Shown here piece after piece: positions 56,034 through 58,289 of a stretch of 64,000 bases of DNA. Position 1 is the first letter of the stretch, and each line of letters begins with the position of its first letter. The stretch comes from Vandammella animalimorsus (GTDB lineage Bacteria > Pseudomonadota > Gammaproteobacteria > Burkholderiales > Burkholderiaceae_C): contig NZ_NSJF01000001.1 of the NCBI RefSeq assembly GCF_002285285.1, forward strand, positions 248,001 through 312,000, written 5' to 3'. Both the position numbers and the translations under genes were made by a program. The notes under the pieces are model-generated. The model was not told the DNA's origin. It saw nothing but the letters and a program-made list of their open reading frames with translations, and did no database searches.

Positions 56034-57773
56034 ATGCCTTCGCCCATGACTCTTTCAATCTGTGTCGCACAACTCAACCCCGTCGCGGGGGATGTACAGG
56101 GCAATCTGGCCCAAGCCCTGCAGGCCGCTGCTCAGGCGCAGGCGCAAGGCTGCCAGCTGTTGGTATTGCCCGAGTTGTTCCTCAGCGGGCCGGGTGCGGG
56201 CGATTTGCTTTGCCGTCCGCTGTTTCTGCAAGACTGCGCGCAGGCGCTGCAGCAGCTGGTGGCCGCCAGTGCGCAATGGCCACATTTGCACATTGTGCTG
56301 GGCCATCCGGAGGCAGTGGCCGAGCCTGAGCATGCTGCAGCAGCAGACCCGCTGCAGTTGCTGCCCAGGCCGCTGGCCTGCAATGCGGCCAGCTTGATTG
56401 GCGCAGGGCAGTTGTTGGCGCGTTGGCGGCAGCAGGGCGGGCAGGGCTGGCAAAGTGGCGAGCAGCGCCATTTCATTGGCGGCTCGCTTGGGGCGCAGCC
56501 AGAGGTGATCTCGGTGCAGGGCGTGCCGCTGGCGGTGCTCATTGGCGCTGATGTCTGGCAACCCAAGCTGGCGCAGCAGGCCCGCCAGGCAGGCGCTCGC
56601 CTGCTGCTGGCGCTGGATGCCTCGCCCTTCGTGCAGGGCCGGCCGGCGCAGCGTGCGGCAGCGCTGGGCGCTTGTGCCCAGGCCGCCGGGTTGCCGCTCT
56701 TGTATGCCAACACGGTGGGCGGTCAGGATGAGCGGGTGTTCGATGGCCATTCGCTGGCACTGCAGGCCGACGGCCAGATTGCGGGCTGGGCCCCAGGCTT
56801 TGCTGCTTGCCTGTGGCCGCTGCAGTGGCAGGGCGATACGGCAGAAGCAGTCGAGCCAGGGCAGTGGCTGCTGGAGCCTGGGCAGAACCACGCGCTGGGC
56901 GAGGAGCTGCTGCAAGTCTGGCAGGCTTTGGTGTTGGCCACGCGCGACTATGTGCGCAAGAACGGCTTTGGCCAGGTGTTGCTGGGCCTGTCGGGCGGGC
57001 TTGATTCGGCCCTGGTGCTGGCGCTGGCGGTGGACGCGCTGGGCGCGCAGCAGGTGCATGCGGTGATGATGCCTTCGCCCTATACGGCGGCCATCAGCCT
57101 GGAGGATTCGCGCGAGATGGTGCGCCGCCTGGGCGTGCGCTATGACGAGATCTCCATCCGCGAGCCTTTCGAGACGCTGCAGCACAGCTTGGCGCCGCTG
57201 TTCGAACAGCGCCCGGTCGATGCCACGGAGGAAAACCTGCAGGCGCGCATCCGGGGCGTGCTGCTCATGGCCTTGTCCAACAAGTTTGGGGGGCTGCTGC
57301 TGGCCACCAGCAACAAGAGCGAGGTCGCCATGGGCTACTCCACGCTGTATGGCGACATGTGCGGCGGCTTTGCGCCGCTGAAGGACTTGTACAAGACCGA
57401 GGCCTTTGCATTGGCGCGCTGGCGCAATGCGCATGTGCCTGCATGCGCCGCAGGCCAGGCCGTGGCGCAGCCCATCCCCGAGCGCATCATCACCCGCCCG
57501 CCCAGCGCCGAGCTGCGCGAGAACCAGACCGATCAGGACAGCCTGCCGCCCTACGAGGTGCTCGACGCCATTGTGCAGCTGCGCCTGGAGCAAGAGCGCT
57601 CGGCCGATGAGATCGTCGCCGCCGGCTACCCGCGCGAGCGTGTCGAGCAGGTGTTCAGGTTGCTGCGCATCAGCGAATACAAGCGCCAGCAAAGCGCACC
57701 CGGCCCCAAGCTCAGCGCACGCAGCTTTGGCCTCGATTGGCGCTATCCAGTCACCAATGGCTATCAGCGTTGA
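56034..57773 (+). CDS. nadE: NAD synthetase with a degenerate glutaminase domain
   Basis: The 579-residue protein has the nitrilase-type glutaminase domain (about 1-280) and the NAD synthetase domain (~300-579) of glutamine-dependent NadE. The synthetase P-loop LGLSGGLDSALV and the NKFGGLLLATSNKSEVAMGY region are intact. In the glutaminase domain E47 (VLPELFLSG) is kept, but the usual Lys of the KHDLPN region is missing (RWRQQGGQGW) and the catalytic Cys of the CEDxW motif is Gly171 in LIGADVW. It may therefore use free ammonia. ATG 56046 (MTLSICVAQLNP) is an alternative start. A PII gene follows 171 bases later. Confidence 0.92.
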   Translation: MPSPMTLSICVAQLNPVAGDVQGNLAQALQAAAQAQAQGCQLLVLPELFLSGPGAGDLLCRPLFLQDCAQALQQLVAASAQWPHLHIVLGHPEAVAEPEHAAAADPLQLLPRPLACNAASLIGAGQLLARWRQQGGQGWQSGEQRHFIGGSLGAQPEVISVQGVPLAVLIGADVWQPKLAQQARQAGARLLLALDASPFVQGRPAQRAAALGACAQAAGLPLLYANTVGGQDERVFDGHSLALQADGQIAGWAPGFAACLWPLQWQGDTAEAVEPGQWLLEPGQNHALGEELLQVWQALVLATRDYVRKNGFGQVLLGLSGGLDSALVLALAVDALGAQQVHAVMMPSPYTAAISLEDSREMVRRLGVRYDEISIREPFETLQHSLAPLFEQRPVDATEENLQARIRGVLLMALSNKFGGLLLATSNKSEVAMGYSTLYGDMCGGFAPLKDLYKTEAFALARWRNAHVPACAAGQAVAQPIPERIITRPPSAELRENQTDQDSLPPYEVLDAIVQLRLEQERSADEIVAAGYPRERVEQVFRLLRISEYKRQQSAPGPKLSARSFGLDWRYPVTNGYQR

Positions 57774-57944
57774 GGCTCAGCAAAAGCAGTGCATTTGAGC
57801 CACCCAGGCAAGCCATGGGCCAGGCAAATGGCGTTACCATTGCGGGCTTTTCGGGCGGCTTAGCCATTTTTCTGGGCGCAGACTCTGTCTCAGACAGCCG
57901 CCGCGCGCCTTTGAATTGCCGCATCCCAGGCAAGGAGTTTTGCA

Positions 57945-58289
57945 ATGAGCATGAAATTGATCACCGCCATCATCAAGCCCTTCAAGCTCGATGATGTGCG
58001 AGAGGCCTTGGCCGAGTCGGGCATCACTGGCTTGACGGTGACCGAGGTCAAGGGTTTTGGCCGCCAGAAGGGCCATACGGAGCTGTACCGTGGCGCAGAG
58101 TACGTGGTGGATTTTCTGCCCAAGGTGAAGATTGAGATCGCCGTGACGGACGCCGTGGTGGACAGCTGTATCGAGACCATCGCCAAGGCTGCGCGCACCG
58201 GCAAGATTGGCGACGGCAAGATCTTCGTCTCCCCGCTGGAGCAGGTGGTGCGCATCCGCACCGGCGAGCAGGACGAGGCGGCTGTCTGA
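57945..58289 (+). CDS. glnB: Nitrogen regulatory protein PII
   Basis: The 114-residue protein senses 2-oxoglutarate, ATP/ADP and, through uridylylation, glutamine. The T-loop Tyr51 (counted from MKLITAII) is in [14 protein letters not shown]; the B-loop [11 protein letters not shown] and C-loop [12 protein letters not shown] are present. AAGGAG lies seven bases before ATG 57945, which adds Met-Ser to the usual start. GlnB and GlnK cannot be separated with certainty; no amtB is adjacent, which favours glnB. Its neighbour is nadE. Confidence 0.95.

Follow-up and report, generated by a model that had tools for sequence, protein, structure and literature searches.

A destroyed glutaminase site in the two-domain NAD+ synthetase of a Lampropedia lineage and its probable return to free ammonia

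Introduction

Which nitrogen donor serves a two-domain NAD+ synthetase whose glutaminase site has lost its catalytic residues, and why is the domain still there? This question is raised by nadE in the window, the stretch of 64,000 nucleotides analysed here, which belongs to a genome of the genus Lampropedia (placed in Comamonadaceae by NCBI's taxonomy). Characterised two-domain NadE enzymes are described as using ammonia as well as glutamine, and a 2012 survey records glutamine use for every two-domain NAD synthetase characterised until then (PMC3376133). The same survey explains the mosaic of one- and two-domain NadE by losses and transfers of genes, with no later fusion or fission events. 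A preliminary description of the window, made from the sequence alone, had noted a dead glutaminase domain beside a PII gene and had offered three reasons for its retention: structure, ammonia channelling from elsewhere, or regulation.

Results

The following features of the window are referred to in the text.
56034..57773, + strand: nadE, two-domain NAD+ synthetase of 579 aa (open reading frame, Pfam domains, PRK13981)
56046..56888, + strand: degenerate nitrilase-type glutaminase domain, residues 5-285 (CN_hydrolase match, 37 of 52 near-invariant positions, well-folded model)
56430..56432, + strand: codon 133, Gln for the catalytic Lys (alignment)
56544..56549, + strand: codons 171-172, Gly-Ala for the catalytic Cys and the neighbouring Glu (alignment)
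56919..57770, + strand: intact ATP-dependent NAD synthetase domain, residues 296-579 (NAD_synthase match, conserved positions)
57945..58289, + strand: glnB, P-II protein gene (sole P-II gene found in the genome; 15-residue T-loop stretch present)

The window NadE scored 645.2 bits against PRK13981 (two-domain NAD+ synthase; curated cut-off 479), and its Pfam domains, CN_hydrolase at residues 11-251 and NAD_synthase at residues 296-553, give it the two-domain NadE2 (type F) architecture of a nitrilase domain fused to an NAD synthetase. It falls outside the single-domain family PRK00768, with 40.7 bits against a cut-off of 250 and with the nitrilase domain present. The synthetase half keeps 109 of 115 near-invariant positions, and the CN_hydrolase match spans the glutaminase domain; an intact synthetase and a full-length glutaminase domain had both been claimed before and are borne out. 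The second, complete nadE for which the preliminary description had suggested a search was not found in the genome (99.6% complete), where the window gene encodes the only NAD synthetase found; two weaker NAD_synthase matches proved to be GMP synthase and MnmA.

Aligned to NadE of Burkholderia thailandensis (4f4h), the reference segments RKQDLPNTEVFDEKRYF and VICEDVW stand opposite RWRQQGGQGWQSGEQRHF and LIGADVW of the window protein. The C-E-K triad is reduced to E47, with G171 at the place of the Cys and Q133 at that of the Lys, a position which holds Lys in 107 of the 115 aligned rows. The alignments to 4f4h and to relatives thus agree with the earlier reading of all three residues, and the damage is wider than had been described: the second residue of the CED motif, E172, is A172, the near-invariant Tyr53 is P53, and the LPNY loop has lost LPN along with a shortening of the segment between the Lys and the second Glu; E143 stays. 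In Mycobacterium tuberculosis NadE, the nitrilase triad is described as Cys176, Glu52 and Lys121, and Glu177 (beside the Cys), Glu132, Tyr58 and a YRE loop are reported to take part in the binding of glutamine, in gating and in coupling (PMC6946656). Except for the triad and the Glu that follows the Cys, we infer how the window positions correspond to this numbering.

A replacement Cys or Lys elsewhere in the domain, named earlier as the finding that would overturn the claim, was sought by comparison of the three dead Lampropedia proteins. No substitute Lys is conserved across their residues 1-289, and the Cys residues common to the three (10, 40, 60, 68, 116, 214 and 259) all lie away from the catalytic position. 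A sequencing error or pseudogene was rejected because two other genomes, with identities of 89-90%, carry the same losses in open frames. Judged from these alignments, the glutaminase site is destroyed, and the window NadE is predicted almost with certainty to hydrolyse no glutamine.

Ammonia might then be supplied in trans by a separate glutaminase or amidase subunit, as in the two-subunit NAD synthetases (type C or R) that exist, for example, in Thermus (PMC3376133). The genome encodes three CN_hydrolase proteins: NadE, Lnt and one further nitrilase below every curated cut-off (L136, contig C7, G000:C7:302404-303243). The latter is closest to Nit6803-type nitrilases (227 bits against a cut-off of 502.6) and reaches 25 bits with the NadE model. 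Moreover, the dead domain would still fill the place that a trans subunit needs. Channelling from elsewhere, as proposed earlier, therefore finds no support here, and we regard such a subunit as very improbable.

Ten Lampropedia genomes were compared. Three encode the dead form (the window's genome, G006 and G008; hereafter the trio), two have CAD instead of CED with Cys and Lys kept (G005 and G009; the CAD pair), and five are intact. The trio forms one group with the CAD pair as its sister (SH-aLRT support 93; 84/91 in a 33-row tree), which suggests from the sequences that the Glu of CED was lost first and that Cys and Lys followed in the trio.

Outside the genus, the Cys is missing from two of 80 named loci, L041 (GQDAEL, with the Lys retained) and L060 (DVDAGA). 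Four others, read later, are intact; L034 and L035 repeat G002 and G007 and were dropped. The family was sampled with 399 genomes, of which a minimum of seven are without the Cys (the window's genome, G006, G388, G351, G362, G287 and G393), and G009 is the CAD form. A DNA pattern for ICEDxW matched 274 of the 399 and was too strict. Of its 125 misses, 122 were rechecked with a looser pattern (the window's genome, G006 and G009 were left out) and 97 matched. This left 25, namely G035, whose NadE was known from an earlier reading to be intact, and 24 that were examined by protein search. These 24 comprised four full-length dead genes, three full-length intact ones (G360, G293 and G140), one broken gene (G393), four partial genes without the site, three genomes with single-domain NadE only, one with a weak nitrilase match only and eight with no match. 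Pattern matches were also obtained outside NadE: VCEDFW in G105, G210, G408 and G300 sits in an ATPase-like protein, which from its sequence we read as ABC-F, and the match in G111 is not NadE either. Given these false positives the survey sets a minimum for dead NadE and does not tell how frequent it is. The same pattern matched 270 of 399 genomes at the level of the order.

In G393 (L123), a MAG that is 86% complete, nadE is split over two frames with Ala at the Cys position, reflecting either decay or an assembly error. G362 carries both a glutaminase-dead two-domain NadE (L119) and a single-domain NadE (L132); its congeners G127, G227 and G419 yielded single-domain NadE only.

On a synthetase-domain tree of 65 rows, from which about 50 redundant or distant rows were left out, the dead label requires at least five changes. 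A careful tree of 33 rows, which omits G393 with its broken frame and genomes outside the AmtB test, requires four for the dead and CAD states together (bootstrap range 3-5). The placement of L119, L060 and L117 is unsure because their branches are long; for L117 and L119 the loss may go back to a single event.

The lineages have lost much the same residues. Among 103 intact rows 52 glutaminase positions are near-invariant; 37-38 of these survive in the trio, 28-38 in the remaining full-length dead genes and 44-45 in the CAD pair. All seven representative dead lineages have changes at E56, N138, C171, E172, N195 and K203 (L086, which reads CEDLG, was excluded from the near-invariant-position and shared-loss counts). 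A further change lies in the synthetase C-terminal part, where the Arg of NEYKRRQ at residue 552 (codon 57687-57689) is Gln in the window NadE. Of the 103 intact rows 96 have R552; six of the seven dead representatives lack it, as do seven intact rows and the CAD pair. The position may belong to interdomain coupling.

The dead domain remains under purifying selection, as estimated from the coding sequences. Its dN/dS in the three trio pairs was 0.20, 0.25 and 0.32 (bootstrap intervals 0.12-0.31, 0.16-0.37 and 0.20-0.48; largest single replicate 0.72), compared with 0.12, 0.10 and 0.18 for the synthetase half. The ratio of about 1.7-2.4 between the domains indicates some relaxation, with a similar gap in intact pairs: L016-L017 gave 0.19 for the glutaminase and 0.08 for the synthetase domain. 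The CAD pair gave 0.37 and 0.06. The AlphaFold model of the window NadE has a mean pLDDT of 90.2, with lower values in blocks 131-160 (68-77), which hold the lost Lys and the loop, and in block 101-110 (56). In a structure search the best matches were solved two-domain NAD synthetases, and only known NadE and nitrilase-family structures appeared among the 50 matches listed.

These data bear on two further readings. Plain decay, with the glutaminase domain drifting toward loss, would fit the repeated loss of the same residues, the long branches of L119, L060 and L117 and the broken frame in G393; against it stand the frame kept open over the whole domain in three species, a dN/dS far under 1, the 37-38 of 52 positions kept by the trio and the confidently modelled fold, and we consider it improbable. 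Still less credible is that NadE has become dispensable, with NAD made or imported by one of the other routes known in some bacteria (PMC3376133), since the synthetase half is strongly conserved both in its 109 of 115 positions and in its dN/dS of 0.10-0.18. The earlier suggestion that the domain was kept for structure fits the continued purifying selection (dN/dS 0.20-0.32); the scaffold role itself we infer.

The P-II protein encoded downstream passes PRK10665 (183.8 bits, cut-off 181) and falls just short of PRK10858 (199, cut-off 202); a P-II gene passing PRK10665 here adjoins nadE, not amtB. The preliminary description had found the neighbouring glnB suggestive, as P-II proteins have been reported to bind NadE and relieve NAD feedback in some proteobacteria. 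The regulatory part of this idea is published: in Azospirillum, Herbaspirillum and Synechocystis, P-II is reported to lift the inhibition that NAD+ exerts on dimeric NadE, and a count across betaproteobacteria gave 834 P-II-nadE islands (PMC7196632). The adjacency itself, in contrast, is the ordinary family arrangement. A P-II gene lies within about 1.5 kb of nadE in 26 of 29 loci of relatives (L005-L033), mostly with intact NadE. The substitution does recur beside glnB in relatives, where a search had been proposed, and seven of the nine full-length dead genes have P-II adjacent (the window's, L005, L006, L041, L060, L117 and L119). Within about 8 kb, no P-II gene was found at the dead genes L114 and L122 (genomes G388 and G287) or at the genes of the CAD pair (L149 of G009, L150 of G005). 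Being common with intact NadE and missing at two dead genes, adjacency was rejected as a particular clue to the dead domain.

Alternatively, the dead domain could have turned into a sensor or docking module that binds a small molecule or P-II and sets synthetase activity. Purifying selection despite the lost chemistry, the P-II gene at seven of nine dead genes and the reported binding of P-II to dimeric NadE (PMC7196632) agree with such a role. The adjacency is equally common with intact NadE, however, and a plain scaffold accounts for the same data, which leaves the module an unlikely explanation.

The betaproteobacterial genome of the window (G000; 99.6% complete) has a single P-II gene and no AmtB: a search that found AmtB in all 14 control genomes did not find it there. 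It was also absent from six of 78 further genomes (G005, G006, G008, G009, G388 and G351; completeness of G005 80%, of G008 77%). NadE is dead in five and CAD in two of these seven AmtB-less genomes among 79. AmtB is present in 42 of 42 tested genomes whose NadE was read as intact and in another 27, of which NadE was read in three only and is single-domain as far as found. Three degraded genomes retain an AmtB match: G362, which also has single-domain NadE, G287, with a NadE from a divergent class, and G393 (a fragment only, in the 86%-complete MAG).

Fisher's test of AmtB against NadE state, in a set of AmtB-tested genomes chosen by us, gave 9e-7 by genome and 0.0012 with the degraded side counted as six lineages (3/6 vs 0/42), kinship on the intact side being uncorrected in both. 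AmtB loss takes three changes on the 33-row tree, and about three losses are too few to inform a sign test of independent pairs (p = 1). With so few losses and three degraded genomes that keep AmtB, the link between glutaminase degradation and AmtB loss is only suggestive. Three genomes with single-domain NadE alone keep AmtB, so ammonia use does not require its loss. In the four intact Lampropedia genomes whose amtB locus was inspected, a P-II gene directly adjoins amtB, in keeping with a joint loss of glnK and amtB by the degraded clade. The degraded genomes are on the whole smaller (2.4-3.1 Mb, two of the small ones incomplete, against 3.2-4.2 Mb in intact congeners), and genome reduction is therefore a confounder that could cause both losses; in other parts of the family, AmtB is present in several intact genomes of 2.5-2.7 Mb. 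A literature search for work on AmtB loss, or on NadE in connection with AmtB, found no report.

Discussion

The NadE2 of this Lampropedia lineage has probably reverted to free ammonia, with the dead glutaminase kept as a scaffold in cells where ammonia is plentiful. The parts of this reading differ in strength. From its sequence the window NadE is predicted, with considerable confidence, to take its nitrogen from ammonia, which would enter the synthetase site directly, as is possible in vitro in characterised two-domain NadE. A report that DTT raised glutamine-dependent NadE activity and had no effect with ammonium as donor likewise concerns the two donors (PMC7196632). The scaffold role is likely: the dimer and the synthetase fold would be built around the glutaminase domain, so that the domain is kept. 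An ammonia-replete life is plausible and somewhat less secure. High cellular ammonia would have let the glutaminase loss be tolerated and would also have made AmtB-GlnK dispensable. Lampropedia is reported from dog mouths and as enriched in dog plaque (PMC6557473, PMC8130298). This habitat evidence concerns other Lampropedia and, through a name, L060, rather than the window's genome, and is a lead only. The name of L060, RUG636, presumably points to the rumen.

Least certain is the part of P-II, which would still bind NadE and relieve NAD+ feedback, now acting on an ammonia-only enzyme. The P-II/NadE assays described in the legends of Figs 3 and 4 of the published work used glutamine (PMC7196632), and a putative action of P-II on the window NadE is conceivable without being the expected outcome.

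More broadly, several burkholderial lineages might have arrived in parallel at ammonia-only NAD synthetases through the same substitutions, with the domain kept as a scaffold or P-II-responsive module and AmtB-GlnK lost, a tentative view that we stop short of calling probable. If it is true, the state of the NadE glutaminase site would be a readout of a cell's life with plentiful ammonia, and P-II would here regulate an enzyme no longer using glutamine. If the link to AmtB loss holds in more genomes, NadE and AmtB read together would mark a life rich in ammonia at the genome level. A two-domain NadE with only its chemistry lost would be another route back to ammonia. It would also be a natural mutant for the non-hydrolytic roles of the glutaminase domain, and lets one ask on which half P-II and NAD+ act. 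Our literature search, whose coverage excluded most subscription papers, found no description of a glutaminase-dead two-domain NadE; a 2018 JBC paper reportedly treats the kinetics of dimeric NadE.

Among known systems, the window NadE resembles the dimeric NadE2-Gln enzymes (PRK13981; 4f4h; HsNadE2, AbNadE2) in its two-domain architecture and intact synthetase motifs and, like many betaproteobacterial members, has a P-II gene beside it. Unlike them it has lost Cys and Lys of the triad together with the Glu next to the Cys, and also Tyr53 and the loop from the Lys to the second Glu. In its probable donor, free ammonia, it is like the single-domain ammonia-dependent NadE (PRK00768 and related), but it lies outside that family and carries a full nitrilase domain. 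A further parallel is vertebrate CPS1, which belongs to an unrelated protein family with a glutaminase fold unrelated to that of NadE. In CPS1, too, an inactive glutaminase-like domain with its catalytic Cys replaced was retained; in the human enzyme Ser stands in place of the Cys and the ammonia comes from outside (PMC4655335), a use of ammonia that would be shared by the window NadE. The CPS1 of Alcolapia fish, in which the triad stays and a glutamine-binding residue is lost (PMC7657897), is comparable with the CAD intermediate of Lampropedia.
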